Below, one piece after another: positions 31,396-42,453 of a stretch of DNA of 64,000 nucleotides. Both the position numbers and the translations under genes were made by a program. The notes beneath the pieces were generated by a model, which was given only the letters and a program-made list of their open reading frames with translations, was not told the origin of the DNA and searched no databases. Every line of letters starts with the position of its first letter. Positions within the stretch are counted from its first letter, which is position 1. The DNA lies in the NCBI RefSeq assembly GCF_002906165.1, contig NZ_PPCN01000002.1, positions 62,001-126,000 on the forward strand. The letters run 5' to 3'. This stretch comes from Roseibium marinum. Lineage in GTDB: Bacteria > Pseudomonadota > Alphaproteobacteria > Rhizobiales > Stappiaceae.

Positions 31396-32802
31396 TTACC
31401 GAGCTTCCGTACCGCCCAGAAAATCCTGTAGAAACTCGATAAATCTCGGATCTGTTCCATGGGCCACGTTGACGCGCATGGCGGCCCGCCCGCGGCTTTT
31501 GCGGTTCGGATAAAAGACGGATCCCGGAGAAATGAAAATGCTCCGTTTGCTCGCCTGCGCGCACAGCTCCTGCTCGTCGACATGCTCCGGAAACTCGACC
31601 CACAGATAAAACCCGGGAATGGAGCTCTCCATGAGGGAGAGCCCGAGCCTTTCCATCTCTTCGAAAGTGGCCTTGCAAGCCTCCTCGACCCGCCCTCTCA
31701 GGCGCCTGAGATGGCGCAGGTAATGTCCGGCCTGGATAAGATTGAAGACGAACCGTTCGACATGTTCGGAGGAATTGACCAGCGTGACCATCTTGATATC
31801 CGCCAGACGGCGGACGATCTCGGGTGCCCCGGCAACATAGCCGCACCTGAGGCTCGCGGACAGAGTCTTCGAGAAGGACCCGAGATAAAGCACACGGTTC
31901 AACTGGTCGAGCGCGGCAAGCCGCGGCAGTGTGGATGGCAGGATATCGGCCAGTGCATCGTTTTCCACCAGAAGAAAACCCCAGCGCTCGGCGAGCTGCA
32001 TCAGCCCGAAGGAACGCGATGGCGACAGGGACCCGCCGGTCGGATTATGACCGTGGGACTGCGTGACGAACATCTTGGGACGGTGCAGCGCGAGCTTTGC
32101 GGTAAGGTCCTCCAGGTCCGGCCCGTCCCGGTCCCGGCGGATACCGACAATCTGGACCTTCGCAAAGGTCAGCTTGGAGAACAGCGGGTAATATCCGGGT
32201 TCGTCGACGAAGACGGTATCGCCCGGTTCGGTCAGATGACGGATGATCAGGTCCAGCCCGTGATTGACACCGTGAGTCAGGAGCAGGCCATCCGGCTGAA
32301 CGGGAATGGAGCGGTCGAGAAGCTGAACCCTCAAGCGTTCCCGCAACGGGCCATACCCCCAGCAACTGCCGTAGCCGAACTGAATGGCCTCCGGATAGGG
32401 CGCCTTGGCATTGGCGAAATGGCGCCTGAGTTCCGAGCCTTCCATCCATAACGGCGGAGGCCGTCCGTCTCCCGGCCGCACCTCGTAATGCTTTTCAAGC
32501 TGCTCGCGCAACAGGGAGACGCCATCGACCGCGGCAGCTACATGAGGCGCCGGCGACAAAGGCGCCGAGATCCGGATCTGGGCCATGTAGTAACCCGAAC
32601 CGGCGCGGGCTTCGAGAAGACCGCGGGCAACGAGCCGGTCATAGGCTTCGGCCATGGTATTTTTCGAAACGCCGTTCTCGCGCGCGGCCTGGCGTATGGA
32701 GGGCAGTCGCTCGAAGGTCTTGTAGGCCCCTGCCTCCAGCATGAGAGCCACTTTCTCAACGATCTGGTCGACACGGGAAAGGCGTCGGCTGCCATCGCTC
32801 AT
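31396..32802 (-). CDS. MocR-type regulator (GntR HTH + aminotransferase fold)
   Basis: A 468-residue protein. An N-terminal winged helix (about residues 8-78) has LPSIRQAARENGVSKNTMAEAYDRL and GLLEARAGSGYY. A fold-type-I aminotransferase domain follows, with the PLP lysine in LGSFSKTLSASLRCGYV (about residue 300) and YGSCWGYGPLRERL. MocR proteins sense metabolites through PLP or its domain. It is divergent from the TRAP/HMG-CoA reductase operon, and repeats of TGATTGTCCC lie between, so it probably controls that operon and itself. Confidence 0.9.
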   Translation of the reverse strand: MSDGSRRLSRVDQIVEKVALMLEAGAYKTFERLPSIRQAARENGVSKNTMAEAYDRLVARGLLEARAGSGYYMAQIRISAPLSPAPHVAAAVDGVSLLREQLEKHYEVRPGDGRPPPLWMEGSELRRHFANAKAPYPEAIQFGYGSCWGYGPLRERLRVQLLDRSIPVQPDGLLLTHGVNHGLDLIIRHLTEPGDTVFVDEPGYYPLFSKLTFAKVQIVGIRRDRDGPDLEDLTAKLALHRPKMFVTQSHGHNPTGGSLSPSRSFGLMQLAERWGFLLVENDALADILPSTLPRLAALDQLNRVLYLGSFSKTLSASLRCGYVAGAPEIVRRLADIKMVTLVNSSEHVERFVFNLIQAGHYLRHLRRLRGRVEEACKATFEEMERLGLSLMESSIPGFYLWVEFPEHVDEQELCAQASKRSIFISPGSVFYPNRKSRGRAAMRVNVAHGTDPRFIEFLQDFLGGTEAR

Positions 32803-32804
32803 CG

Positions 32805-32872
32805 TGATTGTCCCTATCTCTATACTGGGACAGTGACCTCATTTTTGCCGCTATCCGTCCCTTGATTGTCCC
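32805..32872. promoter_or_regulatory. Candidate MocR operator region
   Basis: The intergenic region holds a direct repeat TGATTGTCCC at 32805-32814 and 32863-32872, with an inverted GGGACA at 32827-32832 between them and an extra CGTCCC near 32856. MocR regulators typically bind direct repeats ahead of the divergent target gene. The spacing of 58 bases and the position between the two start codons fit. No confident -10 was found. Confidence 0.6.
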
Positions 32873-32935
32873 AAAATTTTTTATGACAGTCACGACCATT
32901 AAACCAGAAAGCGACAGCTTCCTAGGGAGGAACAC

Positions 32936-33976
32936 ATGACCAGATTGAATAGACGCGGACTTATTGCGGGCGCGGCCTTCAGTGCGGCGGCACTGGCGGC
33001 ATTGACAGTACCGGGCACGGTACAGGCTCAGGAAGCCGTCGAATGGCGCATGCAGGCCCTGTGGGATGCAGGCACGACCCCGTTCGAATATGAAAAGAAA
33101 TTCGTTGAGCGCGTCAGCGAGCTGACCGACGGCAAATTCGACATCAAGCTGTTTTCGGCCGGACAGCTCGTCCCGGCGAACCAGGCATTCGATGCCGTTC
33201 GCGCCGGCGCCTTCGAAATGATGAAAACCTTTGACGGTTACGAAGCCGGCAAGATCCCGGCCTTCGCCTTCACCTCGACCGTTCCTTTCGGTTTTCCCGA
33301 TTCCGATCAGTACGAAGCCTGGTTCTATGAACTCGGCGGACTGGATCTGGCGCGCGAAGCCTATGCCAAGGCGGGCCTCTTCTACATCGCACCATCCGTC
33401 TACGGCGAAGAGCCGATCCACTCCACCGTGAAGATGGAAACCATCGCGGACATGGCCGACAAGAAAGGCCGTTTCGTCGGCCTGGCCTCGGCCGTCATGG
33501 CTGAAATGGACGTCGCAGTGACCCCGATGGCAACCGGTGAAGTTTACACCGCGCTTGAAAAGGGCCTGATCGACTTCGCTGACCGGGGCGATCTGACCGC
33601 GAACTACGAAGCCGGTCTGGCCGAAGTCGCCAAGTTCATCATCCTGCCCGGCGTTCACCAGCCGACCACCGCCACCAGCTATGTCGCCAATCAGGCGGCC
33701 TACGAAGCGCTTCCGGAGGCCTACAAGGCCGCCCTTGCGGTCGCGGCTCGCGAAGTGTCCGGCGCGCTGCGTCAGCATATCCTGGTCCAGAACGTCGAAA
33801 TTCTGGAGAAATACCAGGAAAAGGGCGTTGAAGTGATCTACCTCGATCCGGCCGACGTCGCCGCCAATCGTCTCAAAGCCGTGGAAGCCTGGAAGAAGGC
33901 AACCAAAGGCGACGACCTGGCGACCCGGGTGCTCAACAGCCAGGTTGACTTCATGACTGCTCTGGGTCTGCTTTAA
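32936..33976 (+). CDS. TRAP transporter substrate-binding protein (DctP family)
   Basis: A 346-residue periplasmic protein with a twin-arginine-like signal (NRRGLIAGAAFSAAALAAL, residues about 5-24) and a cleavage region near TVQAQE. The DctP fold shows EWRMQALWDAGTTPFEYEKKFVERV, GKFDIKLFSAGQLVPANQAFDAV and FADRGDLTANYEAGL. TRAP proteins of this branch carry carboxylates; the adjoining HMG-CoA reductase gene points to mevalonate. It follows AGGGAGGAACAC at good distance and begins the operon. Confidence 0.93.
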   Translation: MTRLNRRGLIAGAAFSAAALAALTVPGTVQAQEAVEWRMQALWDAGTTPFEYEKKFVERVSELTDGKFDIKLFSAGQLVPANQAFDAVRAGAFEMMKTFDGYEAGKIPAFAFTSTVPFGFPDSDQYEAWFYELGGLDLAREAYAKAGLFYIAPSVYGEEPIHSTVKMETIADMADKKGRFVGLASAVMAEMDVAVTPMATGEVYTALEKGLIDFADRGDLTANYEAGLAEVAKFIILPGVHQPTTATSYVANQAAYEALPEAYKAALAVAAREVSGALRQHILVQNVEILEKYQEKGVEVIYLDPADVAANRLKAVEAWKKATKGDDLATRVLNSQVDFMTALGLL

Positions 33977-34058
33977 GACCTTCCTCCCGCCGCACGGCGA
34001 CCGGTGTCTCGGCACCGGTCGCCGTGCGGTTGCCTTTTCATTTCGGCTCCGCAGCTTC

Positions 34059-34565
34059 ATGAAACAGATCTGTTCACTCATCACAGGTATCAACCGGGTG
34101 TTTTTCCTCGCAGCCGCCGCGCTGATTTTCGCCGTGGTGCCCATGCTGCTCTTCGAGGTCGTCGCCCGTTACGCGTTCAATGCCCCGACGGTCTGGGCGA
34201 TGGAGGCAAGCACGCTTGTCTTCGGCCCCCACTTCCTGCTCGCGGGTCCCTACCTGCTGCATCTCAAGGGTCATGTCGCGGTCGACATATTCAGCGAGAA
34301 GCTGCAGGGCAGAGCGAAAATCGCGTCCGAGGTGTTTACCTATCTTGTGGTCGCGGTCTTCGCCGGCGTCTTCGCCGTGGTGAGCTGGCCGCTGGCCATG
34401 AATTCCTATGGCATGGCCGAAACGAGCTTTTCCGCCTGGAACCCGCCGATCTGGTGGCTGAAATTCGTCGTCCCTCTCTCCTTCGCCATGCTTTTCGCAC
34501 AGGCGCTCGCCGAGACGATTCATGCATTGTTTCTCTCCGGGAATGAGATCGGAGCGGACGCATGA
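34059..34565 (+). CDS. TRAP transporter small permease (DctQ family)
   Basis: A 168-residue protein with four membrane helices. ARYAFNAPTVWAMEASTLVFG is the DctQ signature, followed by LKGHVAVDIFSEKL and a C-terminal helix pair. It pairs with the large permease to form the sodium-driven translocation unit. It starts 82 bases after dctP and overlaps dctM by four bases (ATGA). Confidence 0.93.
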   Translation: MKQICSLITGINRVFFLAAAALIFAVVPMLLFEVVARYAFNAPTVWAMEASTLVFGPHFLLAGPYLLHLKGHVAVDIFSEKLQGRAKIASEVFTYLVVAVFAGVFAVVSWPLAMNSYGMAETSFSAWNPPIWWLKFVVPLSFAMLFAQALAETIHALFLSGNEIGADA

Positions 34566-35875
34566 GTTCCGAATTCGTCCTCGCCATCATGTTCGCAAGC
34601 CTCATCGGCCTGCTTCTGACCGGTGTGCCGCTCGCCTTCACGCTCGGCGCTCTGGCCCTGCTCTTCACCTTGCTGCTGTGGGGGTCCGCCGCCCTGTCGG
34701 TGACGATCCTCAATCTCTATTCCACCATGACATCGGAAGCGCTGCTCGCAATTCCGCTCTACGTCATGATGGCCAGCACACTGCAACGCTCCGGCGTCAT
34801 CGAAAGTCTTTACCGGGCAATGGAACTGTGGTCGCGCCGCCTTCCGGGCGGACTGGCGGTCGGCACCATCGTGATCTGCACGATCATCGCCGCGATGACC
34901 GGCATAGTCGGTGCCGCGGTCGCGGCCATGGGCATGCTGGCGCTGCCGTCCATGCTGAAGCGCAAATACAGCCCGGAACTGGCGATCGGCACCATCTGCG
35001 CCGGCGGAACCCTCGGCATTCTCATCCCCCCGTCGGTCATCACCATCGTCTATGCGGTGACCGCGCAGGCCTCGATCGGCCAGATGTTCATCGCCGGGGT
35101 CGTTCCCGGCCTGCTGCTGGCCTCGCTCTACATCGGCTACATTGTGTTGCGCGCCGCGCTCGATCCTTCCGTCGCGCCCCGCCCCGACGCCGACGAAGCC
35201 GCCACATGGGACGAGCGGATCGCCTCGCTGAAATCCCTGGTGCTGCCGCTGCTGATCATCGTCGGCGTCCTCGGCACGATCTACATGGGCATCGCCACCC
35301 CGACGGAAGCCGCCGCTGTCGGCGTGTTCCTCGCCTTCATCTCGGCAGTGATCGAGCGGCGTCTCGGCTGGGAGCTCGTCTCGGGCGTCGCGCTCGACGT
35401 GGTCAAGGTCACGGCCATGATCCTGTGGATCACCATCGGTGCGAGGGCGTTCGTGGCGATCTTCACCGGAACCGGCGGCGCCGACTTCCTGCTGGACTTC
35501 ATTCAGAACCTGGACGCAAACCGCTGGGTCGTGCTGGCGGTGATGCTGGGGATGCTTTTCCTCCTCGGCATGTTCCTGGACGAGATCGGTATCATCTTGC
35601 TGTGCGTGCCGGTCTTTCTGCCGGTGATCGACTTCCTGGACTTCGATCGGCTCTGGTTCGGCATCCTCTTCCTGGTTTCCGCCCAGATGGCCTATATCTC
35701 GCCGCCCTTCGGCTACACGCTTTTCTACATGAAAGGTGTGCTGCCGGCCGGGATAGGCATGGGGACCGTCTACCGCGCCATCATTCCCTTCATCCTTCTC
35801 CAGGCCCTCGGCATCTTCATCTGCGCTCTTTTCCCGGAGCTGGTGCTGTGGCTTCCCAATTCAATGATCAACTAA
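34562..35875 (+). CDS. TRAP transporter large permease (DctM family)
   Basis: A 437-residue protein with about twelve membrane segments. It has the DctM landmarks LLTGVPLAFTLGALALLF, AMTGIVGAAVAAMGMLALP, GTLGILIPPSVITIVYAV, YMGIATPTEAAAVGVFLA and GMFLDEIGIILLCVPVFLP. It forms the transport pathway for the substrate delivered by the DctP protein. Start overlaps the dctQ stop. Confidence 0.95.
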   Translation: MSSEFVLAIMFASLIGLLLTGVPLAFTLGALALLFTLLLWGSAALSVTILNLYSTMTSEALLAIPLYVMMASTLQRSGVIESLYRAMELWSRRLPGGLAVGTIVICTIIAAMTGIVGAAVAAMGMLALPSMLKRKYSPELAIGTICAGGTLGILIPPSVITIVYAVTAQASIGQMFIAGVVPGLLLASLYIGYIVLRAALDPSVAPRPDADEAATWDERIASLKSLVLPLLIIVGVLGTIYMGIATPTEAAAVGVFLAFISAVIERRLGWELVSGVALDVVKVTAMILWITIGARAFVAIFTGTGGADFLLDFIQNLDANRWVVLAVMLGMLFLLGMFLDEIGIILLCVPVFLPVIDFLDFDRLWFGILFLVSAQMAYISPPFGYTLFYMKGVLPAGIGMGTVYRAIIPFILLQALGIFICALFPELVLWLPNSMIN

Positions 35876-35890
35876 CATGCAGGACATCCG

Positions 35891-37168
35891 ATGAGCGACG
35901 ACACATCGTCCCGAATTGAAGGCTTTCACAAAATGGCTCCGGATGCCCGGCTCCAGGCCGTGGCGCGCCAGGCGAAGCTCGGCAACGAAGCCGTCGCCAC
36001 TCTCGCGGATGCCGCCTCCGGCCAGATAGAGCTGGCCGACCGCCTTGTCGAAAATGCCATCACCAGCATGGCCATTCCGGTCGGGATCGCCACCAACGTC
36101 ACCGTCGACGGAAGGGACGTGCTGGTGCCGATGGCGACGGAAGAATCCTCCGTCATTGCCGCGGTCTGCAATTCCGCCAAGCGCTGCCGGTCCACCGGTG
36201 GCTTCAGGACCTCCACAAGCGGCCCGGTGATGGCTGCCCAGATTCAGCTTCTGGGCGCCAGCGATCCGGAAAACGTCCGCCTGAAGGTTCTGGAGCGCAT
36301 CGGCGAAATCAAGGCGATCTGCGACGAGACCGATCCGCTCCTGCTGAAATTCGGCGGCGGGTTCCGTGAACTCGACATTCGCGTGATCGACACGGCCGAG
36401 GGGCCGATGACCGTGGTGCATATCATTGTCGACACCCGCGACGCCATGGGCGCCAACGCCGTCAACAGCATGGCGGAGGCCCTGGCCCCGAAGCTGGAGG
36501 AATGGACCGGAGCCCGCAGCCTGCTGCGCATCCTGACCAACCTGGCCGACCGCCGTCTCGCCCGCGTGCGCGCTGTCTGGCCGGTCGAGGAAATCGGCGG
36601 CGAGCAGGTGCGTGACGACATGCTGTCGGCCTATCATTTCGCCGATGCCGACCCCTATCGGGCCGCCACCCACAACAAGGGCATCATGAACGGCATCAGC
36701 GCGGTGGTGCTGGCGACGGGCAACGACACCCGCGCCATCGAGGCGGGCGCCCACGCCTATGCGGCAAAGGACGGCTGGTACCGCTCCATGACCCGCTGGG
36801 AAAAGGACGGCGACGGCAATCTCGTCGGCATCCTTGAAATGCCGCTGGCGGTCGGGCTGATCGGCGGCGCCACGAAGATCCACCCGACGGCGCAGGCCAA
36901 CCTGAAGATCCTCGGCGTCAAGACCGCCGACGAACTGGCCCGCATCATTGTCTCAGTCGGCCTTGCCCAGAACTTCGGCGCCATGCGCGCCCTGGCGACC
37001 ACCGGCATCCAGAAAGGCCACATGGCCCTGCATGCCCAGAACGTCGCCCTGATGGTCGGTGCCGTCGGCGCGGAAATCGACAAGGTGGCGGAAGAGCTGA
37101 AGGCGCTTGGCAAGGTGCGTCAGGATCTCGCCGAAGGCATTCTGGCGCGTCTGCGCAGCGAAGCCTGA
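35891..37168 (+). CDS. mvaA: Hydroxymethylglutaryl-CoA reductase, degradative (class II)
   Basis: A 425-residue class II HMG-CoA reductase, the length of the Pseudomonas mevalonii enzyme. Catalytic segments are PMATEESSVIAA (Glu near 84), HNKGIMNGISAVVLATGNDTRAIEAGAH (Lys and Asp) and TTGIQKGHMALHAQNVALM (His). In degradative organisms it oxidises mevalonate plus CoA to HMG-CoA. It lies 15 bases after dctM and ends the operon, so the cluster is read as mevalonate uptake and oxidation. HMG-CoA lyase, needed for the next step, is not in the window. A biosynthetic role is unlikely since no other mevalonate-pathway gene is present. Confidence 0.95.
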   Translation: MSDDTSSRIEGFHKMAPDARLQAVARQAKLGNEAVATLADAASGQIELADRLVENAITSMAIPVGIATNVTVDGRDVLVPMATEESSVIAAVCNSAKRCRSTGGFRTSTSGPVMAAQIQLLGASDPENVRLKVLERIGEIKAICDETDPLLLKFGGGFRELDIRVIDTAEGPMTVVHIIVDTRDAMGANAVNSMAEALAPKLEEWTGARSLLRILTNLADRRLARVRAVWPVEEIGGEQVRDDMLSAYHFADADPYRAATHNKGIMNGISAVVLATGNDTRAIEAGAHAYAAKDGWYRSMTRWEKDGDGNLVGILEMPLAVGLIGGATKIHPTAQANLKILGVKTADELARIIVSVGLAQNFGAMRALATTGIQKGHMALHAQNVALMVGAVGAEIDKVAEELKALGKVRQDLAEGILARLRSEA

Positions 37169-37320
37169 CGAAGAGGGCAAACTCTTCCGTAAAATTGCCG
37201 AGCCTGCGGCCCTGAGCGGGCATTTCAGATCTGTGTCCGGCCCGGCAGCCGCCGATTTTCTCTGCTTTGGATGAGATTGCCTCTTTTCCAATCGGTTGCT
37301 TGTTGTATCCTTTTTGCAGG

Positions 37321-37839
37321 ATGACAACGGACCTGATCGATCTGCGCGCGGCCCGGACCGCGGACTGCGAAGCGCTAGCCGGCATTCACTGCGAAGCCTG
37401 GCTCGGCGCCTATCGGGGCGTGCTGCACGGCGTCGACCTGCAGAAGATGGTCTCCCGCCGGGGCGCAAGCTGGTGGCGCGGCGCCCTCGCGCGCGGGGTC
37501 GACATCAAGATCCTCAGCATCGCCGAGGTTCCCGCCGGATACGCGACCTACGGCCCCTGCCGCCTGCGCGATACGGGCATGGAGGGCGAGATATACGAAC
37601 TCTATCTGAAACCTGAATATCAGGGCCTGGGCTTCGGCCGCACGCTGTTCGGCAATGTCAGGGAAACACTGTCGGCCAAAAACCTTCCAGGCCTCGCGGT
37701 TCAGGTCCTCAGCGACAACCAGCCCGCCCGCGCCTTTTACAAGGCGCTTGACGGACGGCTGGCGGCGAAATCCTGGTACCGTCTGGGTGGCAAACGGATG
37801 GAACTGTCCATCTACGCCTGGCCGGAAAAGAGCGTCTGA
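37321..37839 (+). CDS. GNAT-family N-acetyltransferase
   Basis: A 172-residue GNAT protein from ATG 37321. The acetyl-CoA-binding motif is EIYELYLKPEYQGLGFGRTLF (Q/RxxGxG/A type) and VQVLSDNQPARAFYKALDGRL is motif B. Target unknown. The ribosome site GCAGG sits very close to the ATG, so translation may start at a nearby alternative codon. It follows the HMG-CoA reductase by about 150 bases and is probably independent. Confidence 0.85.
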   Translation: MTTDLIDLRAARTADCEALAGIHCEAWLGAYRGVLHGVDLQKMVSRRGASWWRGALARGVDIKILSIAEVPAGYATYGPCRLRDTGMEGEIYELYLKPEYQGLGFGRTLFGNVRETLSAKNLPGLAVQVLSDNQPARAFYKALDGRLAAKSWYRLGGKRMELSIYAWPEKSV

Positions 37840-38399: not shown

Positions 38400-39146
38400 T
38401 TGATCAGGATCGAACAGGTATCAAAGACTTTTGGTCAGGGAAAGAACAGCGTTGTGGCTCTCGCTCCCCTCGACCAATTCATCGGCGAAGGTGAGTTTAT
38501 CGCAATCGTCGGGCCATCAGGCTGTGGCAAATCTACACTCCTTCGCATCGTGGCTGGACTGGAAACCGCAACGGAGGGCCGGATTACCCTGGGAACGTCG
38601 CAGCTCAAGCGGCCGGTCGGATTTGTTTTTCAAGATGCCGTTCTCCTGCCGTGGAAGACAGTTGCCGGAAATATCCGTTTTCCACTGGACACCTCAGGCG
38701 TGCCGCGCAAGGTCGGCGACCGGAAAGTCGAGGAACTTGTCGAGCTCGTCGGCCTTCAGGGCTTCGAAAACGCCTTGCCGAAACAACTTTCCGGCGGAAT
38801 GAAGCAACGTACGGCAATTGCCCGCGCCCTCGCCGACGATCCTGCCATACTGCTGATGGACGAACCGTTTTCGGCGGTCGACCTCATGACACGCGAAGGC
38901 CTCAACGACGAGCTGCTGCGGATATGGCAAGCGACCGGAAAAACAATCCTGCTGGTGACCCATTCCGTCGAAGAGGCGGCCTATCTGGGGACGAAAGTCA
39001 TGGTCATGAGCGCCCGGCCCGGGCGTTTGAGAAAAACCTATGACGTCGCTCTTCCCTCACCGAGAACCGAGGAAACAAAGACAAGCGCCGACTATCTCGA
39101 TCTCGTCGGCGAACTGAAACACATGATGCGGGACGCGGACCGATGA
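38400..39146 (+). CDS. ABC transporter ATP-binding protein (nitrate/sulfonate/pyrimidine type)
   Basis: A 248-residue SsuB/TauB/ThiZ-type ATPase from TTG 38400, preceded by GAGGAAATC. Walker A is GPSGCGKST (38-46), the Q-loop is VFQDAVLLPWKTV, the signature is LSGGMKQRTAIARAL and Walker B is AILLMDEPFSAVD. It energises the two permeases in the same operon. It overlaps the next gene (ATGA). The binding protein here is NMT1-like, so thiamine-precursor, sulfonate or nucleobase substrates are possible; the nucleoside phosphorylase in the operon favours a pyrimidine or nucleoside. Confidence 0.92.
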   Translation: MIRIEQVSKTFGQGKNSVVALAPLDQFIGEGEFIAIVGPSGCGKSTLLRIVAGLETATEGRITLGTSQLKRPVGFVFQDAVLLPWKTVAGNIRFPLDTSGVPRKVGDRKVEELVELVGLQGFENALPKQLSGGMKQRTAIARALADDPAILLMDEPFSAVDLMTREGLNDELLRIWQATGKTILLVTHSVEEAAYLGTKVMVMSARPGRLRKTYDVALPSPRTEETKTSADYLDLVGELKHMMRDADR

Positions 39147-39910
39147 CCCGCGCCAGCCGTGCAATCGCCGAATATGGTGCGATCCTCGCGGTGTTTCTTT
39201 TCGTGTGGTGGTACGCCAGCGGTCCTTACGGCATGCCCCAATACCTGCTGCCTTCTCCGCAAGCAGTCGCAAGTACCCTCTGGAAAATGTTGCTGGCGGG
39301 AGATCTGCTGCCCCACCTGTCTTTCACGGCACGAAATATTCTGGTCGGTCTTGCGGTAAGTACGGTCTTTGGTGTGGCCTTCGCTTATCTGGTCTACAAA
39401 TTTCCGGTTCTGAGCGAAACGCTGGAGGGACCGATCGTCGTACTTCAAACGGCGCCGAAGATCGCGCTTGCCCCTTTGGTCATCATCTGGTTCGGGCTGG
39501 GTCTTACCGCGAAGATCGTTCTCATATTCAGTCTCGCCTTTTTCCCTATATTCGCCGGGTGTCTCGCCGGTCTCCGCGCGATGGACAGCAGGTTGCAGGA
39601 TCTTGCGGTTTTGCTGAACCTCGGCGCGCTTCAGCGGTTTGTCCGAATTGACCTTCCCGCCTCTTTGCCCGGAGTTTTCGTCGGCCTGAAAGTCGGCGCC
39701 GTCCAGGCATTGGTCGGAGCGGTGCTGGCTGAATGGATGTCGGGCGATCAGGGCCTCGGATACCTGATGACCTTCGCAACCGCCACTTACAAAACCCCGA
39801 TGCTGTTCGGCGCCGTGCTTTTGACAGCGCTGCTCGGTATCGCGCTGCACGGCTCGCTGAATGAACTTGAGGCAAGATTTTTGTCATGGAATTCTTCCGA
39901 TGAGCACTAA
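39143..39910 (+). CDS. ABC transporter permease (SsuC/ThiX-like), first copy
   Basis: A 255-residue permease with about six membrane segments and the EAA-type loop LAVLLNLGALQRFVRIDLPA before LPGVFVGLKVGAVQALVGAVLAEWMSG. LQTAPKIALAPLVIIWFG is typical of this group. A second, different permease lies at 41716, so the transporter probably has a heterodimeric membrane part. The C-terminus overlaps the next gene by 11 bases. Confidence 0.92.
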   Translation: MTRASRAIAEYGAILAVFLFVWWYASGPYGMPQYLLPSPQAVASTLWKMLLAGDLLPHLSFTARNILVGLAVSTVFGVAFAYLVYKFPVLSETLEGPIVVLQTAPKIALAPLVIIWFGLGLTAKIVLIFSLAFFPIFAGCLAGLRAMDSRLQDLAVLLNLGALQRFVRIDLPASLPGVFVGLKVGAVQALVGAVLAEWMSGDQGLGYLMTFATATYKTPMLFGAVLLTALLGIALHGSLNELEARFLSWNSSDEH

Positions 39911-40730
39911 TGCGCCGCCCACAGCGTTGAAACCTCATGTCGACGGCCGGCCTCCGCACCTGCCCTGCGGACCAGGGGATGTTGCTCAGGATGTTCTTAT
40001 CCCGGGCGATCCGGATCGGGTGGGTTTGCTGACCGATATGCTGGAAGACGTCGTGGATCTCGGCCGCCGGCGGGAATTCGCCATGGTGTCGGGCCGCTAC
40101 AAGGGGCACCCGATTACAATTTGCTCCAGCGGAATTGGCGGGCCTTCCACTGAAATCGCTTTGGTCGAACTGGCCATGCTCGGTGCGAAACGCGTTGTCC
40201 GGATCGGCGGAACAGCCTCGCTTGTTGCGGCCATGCCAGTCGGGTCCTTCCTGTGTGTGGACGAAGCCATCGGGTCGAGCGGTGCTGCCAGGTTCTATTG
40301 CGCCCCGGACGCAAAGACCCGGGCGGATCCCGAATTACGCACGGCATTGCTGGAGGCAGCCCAGGCGGCAGGCTTCACCGCCAGGGTCGGCACGGTCGCG
40401 ACAAGCGACAGTTACTATCTGGGCCAGGACCGGCCCATTGAGGTCAACGGAGTGGCAATGCCCCTGGACGGCAGCGTCCTGGAAGGATTCCGAAAGGCGG
40501 GAGCCCACAGCGTCGATATGGAAAGTCAGGTTGTCTTGTCAGTCGGTAAAAGACTGGGATTGAAAGCAGCATGTCTCTTGGGGGTCCACGCCAACCGGGC
40601 CACGAATGAATGGCTGACCGACTACGAGGCGACACAACGAGGACTGTTCACGATCGCCAGCCAGGCGCTGATTGCATCTTTTTCTGAAAGCAGCAATGAA
40701 AAGGAGACTGAACATGTACGCCAAACTTAG
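39900..40730 (+). CDS. Nucleoside phosphorylase (uridine phosphorylase-like)
   Basis: A 276-residue NP-I family enzyme from ATG 39900, within the permease end. DVLIPGDPDRVGLLTDML carries the phosphate-binding region; SSGIGGPSTEIALVELAMLGAKRVVRIGGTASL and SVDMESQVVLSVGKRLG (nucleoside-binding Met-Glu) match uridine phosphorylase. It splits a pyrimidine nucleoside with phosphate to free base and ribose phosphate. An enzyme embedded between transport genes suggests that the imported compound is a nucleoside or is processed on entry. It overlaps the binding-protein gene by 17 bases. Confidence 0.9.
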   Translation: MSTNAPPTALKPHVDGRPPHLPCGPGDVAQDVLIPGDPDRVGLLTDMLEDVVDLGRRREFAMVSGRYKGHPITICSSGIGGPSTEIALVELAMLGAKRVVRIGGTASLVAAMPVGSFLCVDEAIGSSGAARFYCAPDAKTRADPELRTALLEAAQAAGFTARVGTVATSDSYYLGQDRPIEVNGVAMPLDGSVLEGFRKAGAHSVDMESQVVLSVGKRLGLKAACLLGVHANRATNEWLTDYEATQRGLFTIASQALIASFSESSNEKETEHVRQT

Positions 40731-41709
40731 AAATTATCTCACAGCATTTGCAGCAATCGCAGCCACTTTGATGGCACCCGAAGCAATGGCCAAAGACAAG
40801 GTGGTCTTCCAGATAGATGGCAACGTCGTGCCATTTTACGCTCCTCTTTACGCCGGAGTGGAAAACGGCTTCTTCGAAGAACAGGATATCGAAGTCGAGT
40901 TCCTCTATGCCGGCGCATCGGATATTCTTACAAACATTGCCGCGGGCAACGTCGATTTCGGATTTCCGAACGGCGACGCGGTTGTTGCGGCGGCTGCCAG
41001 CGGCCTGCCGGTAAAAGTCGTTCACACGACGTACCAGCGCGGCATAGGAGCGCTACTTGCCAAGTCCGAAAGCGGGATTGAAACCTACGCGGACCTGAAA
41101 GGCAAAACGGTTGCCGTTACCTCGCTCGGCAGCCCGAACTATCTGCAGCTCCAGGTGGGCCTCATACAGGCAGGCCTGACCATAGACGATGTCAAAGTCG
41201 AGGTGGTCTCATCAGGTGCCATCGTGCAAACCCTGCAAAGCGATGACGTCGACGCCATTGTCTTCTCCGAATTGCGGAAATACGTCCTTGAGGCGGGCGG
41301 ATTCAAGGTCAACATGATCCTGTCGAATGATTTCCTCCCCTCCTTTGGCAACGTGGTGGTCACAAGCGCCGAAACCCTTGCCGACAACCCTGACCTGGTC
41401 AAACGCTTTACGGCGGCGGTGACCAAGTCGTATCAATGGGTAATAGACGGCAATGTCGATGCGGCGCTGCAGATCTCGATGGATAAATACACGCCGACCT
41501 GGGCCGACCAGATGCCTATCTTGTCCACGGCATTCACGAACACATTCGTGGCCTCCGTCTGGCAGAGCCCGCTGACCGCCGAACGTGGACTGGGTGCCGC
41601 CAACCTCGAAGCGTGGCAGAAGAATGCGGATATCCTGGCGGAATACGATGTGATCGATACGGCGCCCAATGCGGCCGATTTTGTCGTCGATCCTTCCGAC
41701 ATCAAGTAA
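40714..41709 (+). CDS. ABC transporter substrate-binding protein (NMT1/THI5-like)
   Basis: A 331-residue protein from ATG 40714, after AAAAGGAGACTGAAC. A signal peptide (about residues 1-26, ending EAMAKD) precedes an NMT1/THI5/SsuA-like domain: VVFQIDGNVVPFYAPLYAGVE, GFFEEQDIEVEFLYAG, GNVDFGFPNGDAVVAAAASG and LKGKTVAVTSLGSPNYLQLQ. Members bind hydroxymethylpyrimidine, sulfonates, riboflavin or related small ring compounds. Here a pyrimidine ligand is inferred from neighbours only. Confidence 0.9.
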   Translation: MYAKLRNYLTAFAAIAATLMAPEAMAKDKVVFQIDGNVVPFYAPLYAGVENGFFEEQDIEVEFLYAGASDILTNIAAGNVDFGFPNGDAVVAAAASGLPVKVVHTTYQRGIGALLAKSESGIETYADLKGKTVAVTSLGSPNYLQLQVGLIQAGLTIDDVKVEVVSSGAIVQTLQSDDVDAIVFSELRKYVLEAGGFKVNMILSNDFLPSFGNVVVTSAETLADNPDLVKRFTAAVTKSYQWVIDGNVDAALQISMDKYTPTWADQMPILSTAFTNTFVASVWQSPLTAERGLGAANLEAWQKNADILAEYDVIDTAPNAADFVVDPSDIK

Positions 41710-41715
41710 GATATC

Positions 41716-42453
41716 ATGTTCCTTAGAAGTCTTTTGGGACTGGCCGGTTTCGTCGCGCTCTGGGGCGCGGCGGTTCCGGTGTTCAATATCCCGTCCTACC
41801 TTCTTCCCGGACCGATTGAGGTCTTCGACCGGATCTGCTTTCTTTTCGAACGCGCCGAGCTCGCCGGGCACATCCAGGTGACGGTTCTGGAGATCTTCTG
41901 GGGCTTTCTTCTCGGGACCTTTACGGGAATTGTCTCTGCAATCGTGTTCGCGCGCATTCCCGTTTTGCTGCGTATTTTCACACCCCTGATATTATTGCTG
42001 CAAACCGTTCCCAAGATAGCGATAGCACCGCTTCTTCTGCTCTGGCTCGGCTTGGGACTCGCCCCCAAAGTCGTCCTGGTGGCGATCGTTTCGTATTTCC
42101 CGGTCATGACCGCAATGCTTTCCGGGCTCAGGTACATCGACAAATCCTTCACGGATCTGGCAGGCGTCCTCCGGCTCACGCCCTGGCAGCGGTTCTGGCA
42201 CGTGGAACTTCCCTCCGCGTTACCCGGATTGTTCGCCGGCGCCACGGTTGCCTCGACGCTTGCGATGACCGCAGCGGTGATCGGAGAATTGATGGGCGCC
42301 AACAAGGGAATGGGGTTCATGCTCGCGACGGGTCAGGAAAACGCTGACACGGCTACCGTCATCGGCATGGTCATTCTGCTTGCTTTCCTCGGCTGGGCAT
42401 TCTTTTCGATGCTCGAATATCTGCGCAAGCGGATGGAAGATCGCTTTTCGTAA
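41716..42453 (+). CDS. ABC transporter permease (SsuC/ThiX-like), second copy
   Basis: A 245-residue permease, six bases after the binding-protein gene. It has LLQTVPKIAIAPLLLLWLGLG, then the loop LAGVLRLTPWQRFWHVELPSALP and LAMTAAVIGELMGANKGMG. It is related to, but clearly different from, the permease at 39143. It ends the plus-strand operon, 31 bases from the convergent btpA remnant. Confidence 0.92.
   Translation: MFLRSLLGLAGFVALWGAAVPVFNIPSYLLPGPIEVFDRICFLFERAELAGHIQVTVLEIFWGFLLGTFTGIVSAIVFARIPVLLRIFTPLILLLQTVPKIAIAPLLLLWLGLGLAPKVVLVAIVSYFPVMTAMLSGLRYIDKSFTDLAGVLRLTPWQRFWHVELPSALPGLFAGATVASTLAMTAAVIGELMGANKGMGFMLATGQENADTATVIGMVILLAFLGWAFFSMLEYLRKRMEDRFS

Follow-up and report, generated by a model that had tools for sequence, protein, structure and literature searches.

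A 64,000-nucleotide stretch of the Roseibium marinum genome (contig NZ_PPCN01000002.1, positions 62,001 to 126,000; the whole stretch is hereafter the window) carries a gene for a MocR-type regulator facing a tripartite ATP-independent periplasmic (TRAP) transporter, DctPQM, and a class II 3-hydroxy-3-methylglutaryl-CoA (HMG-CoA) reductase (HMGR). Comparison with related genomes makes it highly probable that this is a catabolic mevalonate locus, in which the MocR protein would bind an array of short boxes and control both the operon and its own gene in answer to mevalonate or one of its products. A preliminary description of the window had read the locus as a unit of mevalonate uptake and oxidation under a MocR regulator, and the comparative evidence gives that reading good support. 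The unit itself, a divergent MocR gene with a DctPQM transporter and a class II HMGR, is confirmed by Pfam and NCBIfam matches and by five open reading frames (ORFs) that lie exactly where they had been placed:

31396..32802, minus strand: MocR/GabR-type regulator (GntR winged helix and aminotransferase-fold domain; PF00392, PF00155), with pyridoxal 5'-phosphate (PLP) lysine K312
32936..33976, plus strand: DctP-type TRAP solute-binding protein, putative ligand mevalonate (PF03480, 149.4 bits)
34059..34565, plus strand: DctQ, small TRAP permease (PF04290, 84.7 bits)
34562..35875, plus strand: DctM, large TRAP permease (PF06808, 271.5 bits; TIGR00786, 318.7 bits, above cut-off)
35891..37168, plus strand: class II degradative HMGR (TIGR00532, above cut-off), predicted reaction mevalonate + CoA to HMG-CoA

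In the route that we propose, DctPQM would import mevalonate and HMGR would oxidise it with CoA and, probably, NAD+ to HMG-CoA. An HMG-CoA lyase from a methylcrotonyl-CoA carboxylase cluster elsewhere in the genome would then cleave HMG-CoA to acetoacetate and acetyl-CoA. The divergent MocR protein would bind a TGTMCC/GGKACA array in the shared intergenic region and, by repression or activation, control its own gene and the operon, with mevalonate or a product thereof as the presumed effector.

Co-occurrence of regulator, transporter and reductase

The order MocR <-> DctPQM-HMGR recurs in close relatives, and the arrangement is therefore not due to chance. In two surveys, one of 87 genomes of the family and one of a class sample of 240 genomes, scoring was confined to the top candidates that a preliminary search gave for each genome. 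HMGR (E <= 1e-20) occurs in 28 of the 87 family genomes; the MocR orthologue (at least 361 bits, the next best in any genome reaching 296) and DctP (at least 441 bits, with nothing else at 1e-50) occur in 27 each. The MocR and DctP sets are identical, and both equal the HMGR set minus one genome, G047. Among the 28 genomes with HMGR, the MocR gene lies beside the cluster in 26, elsewhere in one (Breoghania, G001) and is absent from G047 (Fisher p 1.2e-21, for related genomes that are not independent). In the class sample, MocR (1e-90) occurs in 6/240 genomes, HMGR (1e-90) in 7/240 and both in 5/240 (p 2e-8); in the four genomes with both besides R. marinum, the two genes lie next to each other in divergent orientation, with 164-231 bp between them as aligned. 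This co-occurrence, together with the conserved predicted operator boxes described below, supports the earlier suggestion that a MocR protein controls mevalonate genes.

A predicted operator array

The intergenic region of the window holds TGATTGTCCC twice, along with inverted copies of the same box. Five boxes are predicted from the sequence:

32809..32814, plus strand: predicted operator box 1, TGTCCC
32827..32832, minus strand: predicted operator box 2, GGGACA, inverted, 12 nt after box 1
32856..32861, plus strand: predicted operator box 3, CGTCCC, one mismatch, 23 nt after box 2
32867..32872, plus strand: predicted operator box 4, TGTCCC, 11 nt start-to-start after box 3, also in close relatives
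32883..32888, minus strand: predicted operator box 5, ATGACA, a weak inverted box

The pattern TGTMCC - 12 nt - GGKACA - 23 nt - TGTMCC recurs across loci in several proteobacterial groups, irrespective of whether the first gene encodes DctP, HMGR or a TctA-type membrane protein. At the sequence level, the array thus shows the direct and inverted boxes with a TGT core that characterize operators of the MocR family. The loci compared contain 47 MocR neighbours of HMGR (21 from a contig scan, 25 from family loci and that of the window), and shuffle scoring covered 35 of the 47 regions, leaving out 11 close family relatives and the broken copy at L143 (which scores 21 of a maximum of 27); long regions were trimmed to 450 bases. 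In 26 of the 35, the best three-box score was higher than in any of 100 dinucleotide shuffles of that region. The nine regions that failed comprise six from Pseudomonas, Variovorax and Achromobacter, which have TGTACC-type boxes at another spacing, two with a degenerate middle box (L145 and L146), and one in which MocR is not divergent from HMGR (L020).

In Breoghania (L007 and L132, treated as the same genome), about 245 kb separate the MocR gene from the operon, yet boxes stand before both dctP (24 of 27) and mocR (22), the first box of the latter copy having decayed. Genome G047, with HMGR and no MocR, has no box array (best score 17), and the 17 loci without a MocR that were scored, drawn from 16 genomes and including two short contigs, have best scores of 16-19. 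Allowing up to three mismatches, the pattern occurs once in the R. marinum genome, before this operon and with one mismatch.

Two side observations concern these regions. The MocR-less locus L013 scores 19 about 140 nt before its HMGR match, which may be a decayed site. A scan of the intergenic region of the window found no sigma-70-type site, and a promoter reading of the region was dropped for that reason.

Direction of the pathway

HMGR scores 423.2 bits for the "degradative" equivalog TIGR00532, whose cut-off is 259.95. Among solved structures it matches 1qax best (451.5 bits), which we take to be the HMGR of Pseudomonas mevalonii. Residues E85, K263, D279 and H377, presumably the catalytic Glu, Lys, Asp and His by P. 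mevalonii positions, are identical in all 106 aligned rows (the window and 105 of 108 fetched rows, three having been removed by a length and score filter). The R. marinum genome (6.06 Mb in 29 contigs) encodes dxs of the methylerythritol phosphate pathway, above its cut-off. The preliminary description had named biosynthetic mevalonate genes elsewhere in the genome as the finding that would count against a degradative role; for the two families searched, HMG-CoA synthase (PF08540) and mevalonate kinase (TIGR00549), the genome has no match. The presence of dxs and the lack of a match to these two families make it very probable that HMGR is catabolic, oxidising mevalonate.

The preliminary description had proposed looking for HMG-CoA lyase elsewhere in the genome, and a search located the best one at G000:C6:74432-75283 (457.5-457.7 bits; G000 is the R. 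marinum genome). Its neighbours encode a carboxyl transferase, a biotin carboxylase with a methylcrotonyl-CoA carboxylase domain, an acyl-CoA ligase and an enoyl-CoA hydratase; by its gene content, the cluster is of the leucine (methylcrotonyl-CoA carboxylase) type. The pathway thus closes outside the locus, and the word "complete", which the preliminary description had applied to it, is too strong. HMG-CoA lyase lies inside the HMGR cluster in 14 of the 28 family genomes with HMGR, one copy being broken, and both this and the lyase of R. marinum agree with the degradative direction. A second lyase-like gene (L002, 260.7 bits, cut-off 246) was rejected as the pathway enzyme because the gene at L001 scores far higher (457.5 bits) and sits in the cluster just described.

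The opposite direction, in which HMGR would make mevalonate from the HMG-CoA of leucine breakdown, could draw on the facts that HMG-CoA is a leucine intermediate and that the lyase cluster is of leucine type. We regard it as very improbable, however: the enzyme scores as the degradative type, an importer is encoded with it, dxs is present, and neither HMG-CoA synthase nor mevalonate kinase has a match.

Uptake and exchange of transporters

All three TRAP subunits (DctP, DctQ and DctM) score above their Pfam cut-offs. DctP misses the cut-off of the DctP family TIGR00787 (65.4 vs 175.05 bits) and reaches that of the broader NF037995 (93.3 vs 50 bits). Judged by its gene partners, the transporter very probably imports mevalonate. 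In the two surveys, DctP orthologues occur only beside HMGR, in 27/27 family genomes and in the three of 240 class genomes that have DctP (1e-70), with R. marinum counted in both figures, and they do so in two gene orders, MocR<->DctPQM-HMGR and MocR<->HMGR-DctPQM. This restriction argues against the alternative that the transporter serves some other hydroxy or keto acid and owes its place next to HMGR to something else. That alternative can point to the best solved match of DctP, the lactate-binding protein TTHA0766 (215.9 bits over a full-length alignment), a match that leaves the ligand unsettled; we think it quite unlikely.

Of 590 relatives in the contig scan with HMGR, the best 80 were retained, many being from archaea or Chloroflexi; 21 of these 80 have a MocR relative in the stretch. 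Nine of the 21 (L018, L023, L061, L063, L066, L069, L080, L083 and L086) carry a TctA-type membrane protein instead of this kind of TRAP transporter (PF01970 in the five loci tested by Pfam; by BLAST in the others). They come from Pseudomonas, Variovorax, Achromobacter, Rhizobium, Halomonas and Vreelandella, and in them the same MocR type faces HMGR. The regulator therefore stays while the transporter changes, and the TctA-type protein is a candidate for a second kind of mevalonate transporter. Seven of the nine loci also encode related versions of a small protein that matches no Pfam family. A further, MocR-less kind of locus combines HMGR with distantly related TRAP genes, whose DctP is 25-29% identical (L022, L141, L254).

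Other features of these clusters may be recorded here. A class III CoA-transferase is present in some MocR-HMGR clusters (L080 10341-11579, by Pfam; L083 10204-11430 and L252 8145-9383, by BLAST). At L143 (G003), decay or assembly error has distributed the matches to MocR, DctM, HMGR and lyase among several reading frames.

The regulator and what it may sense

The regulator has the MocR architecture, with a GntR winged helix (41.2 bits) and an aminotransferase class I/II domain (94 bits), both above cut-off. It falls below the NCBIfam cut-offs of PdxR, GabR, EhuR, YczR, rhizopine MocR and PtsJ; for the PdxR equivalog NF052282 it reaches 223.6 of the 320 bits needed. Its structural model (pLDDT, the predicted local distance difference test score, 81.5) matches aminotransferases, GabR and PdxR. 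The PLP lysine K312 and residues N253, D282 and R443 are kept in 45/45 HMGR-linked MocRs, that of the window included; this count used 45 of the 47 (filter >400 aa and >150 bits), without the broken L143 and split L086 copies.

The nearest other MocRs fetched from the family genomes, 20 proteins at 33-38% identity, all lie beside an EamA permease and never near HMGR, and EamA is beside none of the 21 HMGR-linked MocR loci. Thirteen positions are invariant in all 46 mevalonate-type MocRs, Breoghania included, and absent or nearly so in the 20 EamA-linked proteins, in a comparison that excluded five distant paralogues of R. marinum itself (L230-L234). Among the thirteen are N48 in the winged-helix domain and Y205, P206, F208, K210 and R223 in the sensor domain.

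The MocR family is known for sensing vitamin B6 and amine compounds; mevalonate contains no amine, yet all 45 regulators counted retain the PLP lysine. It could be supposed that this regulator senses vitamin B6 (PLP) or an amine, as known members do, and that mevalonate use is only tied to that state. The four residues kept in every regulator counted are in line with this supposition, as are published cases: EnuR is induced by primary amines able to react with PLP (stated in a passage of PMC8739950), OapR responds to beta-alanine (from an excerpt of PMC7057948), and PLP metabolism is the commonest MocR regulon, with 31 of 86 groups (in the portion of PMC5320631 consulted). The annotated partners, however, which are part of the neighbours, are HMGR, HMG-CoA lyase, acid transporters and CoA-transferase, with no PLP or amine gene among them, and the single predicted operator site of the genome stands before this operon. 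We consider PLP or amine sensing rather unlikely. Our own suggestion is tentative and may well be wrong: the lineage could be a dedicated mevalonate regulator that keeps PLP on its lysine and is triggered by an amine-free acid, mevalonate or a CoA or acid product of it, which would be held non-covalently with its carboxylate on R443 beside the internal aldimine.

Beside this, a regulator of the group in genome G268 (L248 6891-8534) is perhaps another MocR protein that acts over an acid without an amine.

Observations that weigh against the reading

Several results count against a catabolic mevalonate locus under MocR control. Besides the lactate-type match of DctP, the AlphaFold model of this protein is too poor for use (pLDDT 52), and because of this no fold search or pocket reading was made from it. 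The lyase lies outside the locus, so that R. marinum lacks an mvaAB-like arrangement of HMGR and lyase in one cluster; the lyase cluster (L151) contains no convincing operator (best score 19 of 27), and the idea that MocR also controls the lyase in this genome was dropped on that account. The surveys contain exceptions in both directions: G087 and G280 have HMGR without this MocR type, and G268, which lacks HMGR, encodes a MocR of the group (42% identity) next to a prpB-like lyase and a LeuD-like gene. At L027, close TRAP genes accompany HMGR with no MocR in the stretch available and no operator (best 18).

The predicted operator has its own weaknesses. The boxes were defined on the same regions that were then scored; the shuffles therefore establish that each sequence truly contains the array, but they do not amount to a prediction made in advance. 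The operator of the window scores 22, against 20 at the runner-up position of the 64 kb (37810), and a reversed control pattern has two matches in the genome. Lastly, the tree did not bear out the HMGR-linked MocRs as one clade. The 20 EamA-linked proteins nest among them on a long branch, for which the program warns of a possible false join, and the label "HMGR-linked" needs three changes on the tree, one of which comes from the Breoghania MocR, entered there as unlinked.

Neighbouring features

Between dctP and dctQ, at window positions 33989-34030, lies a stem of 19 pairs with a 4-base loop and a short T-rich tail, which may lower expression of the permease relative to the binding protein. 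Downstream of HMGR, a GNAT acetyltransferase is encoded at 37267-37839, with a homologue in the same place in 8 of 27 fetched family loci (L124-L128, L133-L135). The region 38400-42453 is a separate uptake system, with an ABC transporter ATPase, an NMT1-like binding protein, a uridine-phosphorylase-like gene below its equivalog cut-off and two more membrane-protein-like ORFs.

Comparison with known systems

Mevalonate catabolism in P. mevalonii proceeds through the HMGR MvaA and the HMG-CoA lyase MvaB, and MvaT is reportedly the activator of mvaAB (Rosenthal and Rodwell 1998). The system described here resembles it in the type of HMGR, in having a lyase in the genome and, among relatives, in placing that lyase beside HMGR. 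It differs in that a TRAP transporter leads the operon, the lyase is encoded elsewhere and the neighbouring regulator is a MocR protein. Mevalonate is a central isoprenoid intermediate, and the locus offers both a candidate importer specific for it and a candidate regulator of natural origin; a mevalonate-responsive regulator obtained by design is reported by Tang and Cirino (2011).

For the importer, TTHA0766 is a lactate TRAP binding protein, and DctP of R. marinum differs from it in occurring only beside HMGR in both surveys. Part of PMC12405511 describes a mevalonate importer evolved from a yeast lactate-type transporter and states that several bacterial species have mevalonate import systems; in view of the latter statement, the importer may have less claim to novelty than the regulator. 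MocR control of TRAP transporters also has precedents, since passages of PMC5320631 list EutR with TeaABC, and TauR2 with TRAP transporters of unknown specificity.

Among the open-licence PMC papers that the searches listed, we found none linking MocR to mevalonate, nor any on mevalonate with a TRAP transporter or binding protein, on degradative HMGR with TRAP, or on mevalonate catabolism with the lyase. Mevalonate is not mentioned in the main text, as far as consulted, of a survey of 825 MocR regulators (PMC5320631), and a term search in the accessible text of a MocR classification paper (PMC6677901) did not find it. The preliminary description had thought a MocR protein over mevalonate use unusual, and the open-licence PMC literature searched agrees.

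The regulator is like GabR, PdxR and EnuR/EhuR in domain architecture, PLP lysine and fold, and its boxes, direct and inverted with a TGT core, are like those given for the MocR family in a section of PMC5320631. Unlike GabR, PdxR and EnuR/EhuR, it stands beside an amine-free pathway, with no PLP enzyme among the annotated partners. The EamA-paired MocRs, its nearest other relatives in the family genomes, differ by their EamA partner and by the 13 signature positions. The locus also poses a question for the MocR family, namely whether a PLP-carrying sensor can answer to an amine-free compound, and the conserved boxes and signature residues make that question testable. If the tentative suggestion above is true, an amine-free trigger would be a sensing mode new with respect to the portions of the MocR papers covered, and the regulator would be a natural mevalonate-responsive switch. 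Set against these systems, the pathway is of a known kind, and the link between MocR and mevalonate, the operator and the sensing chemistry are its new part, as far as the literature searched shows.

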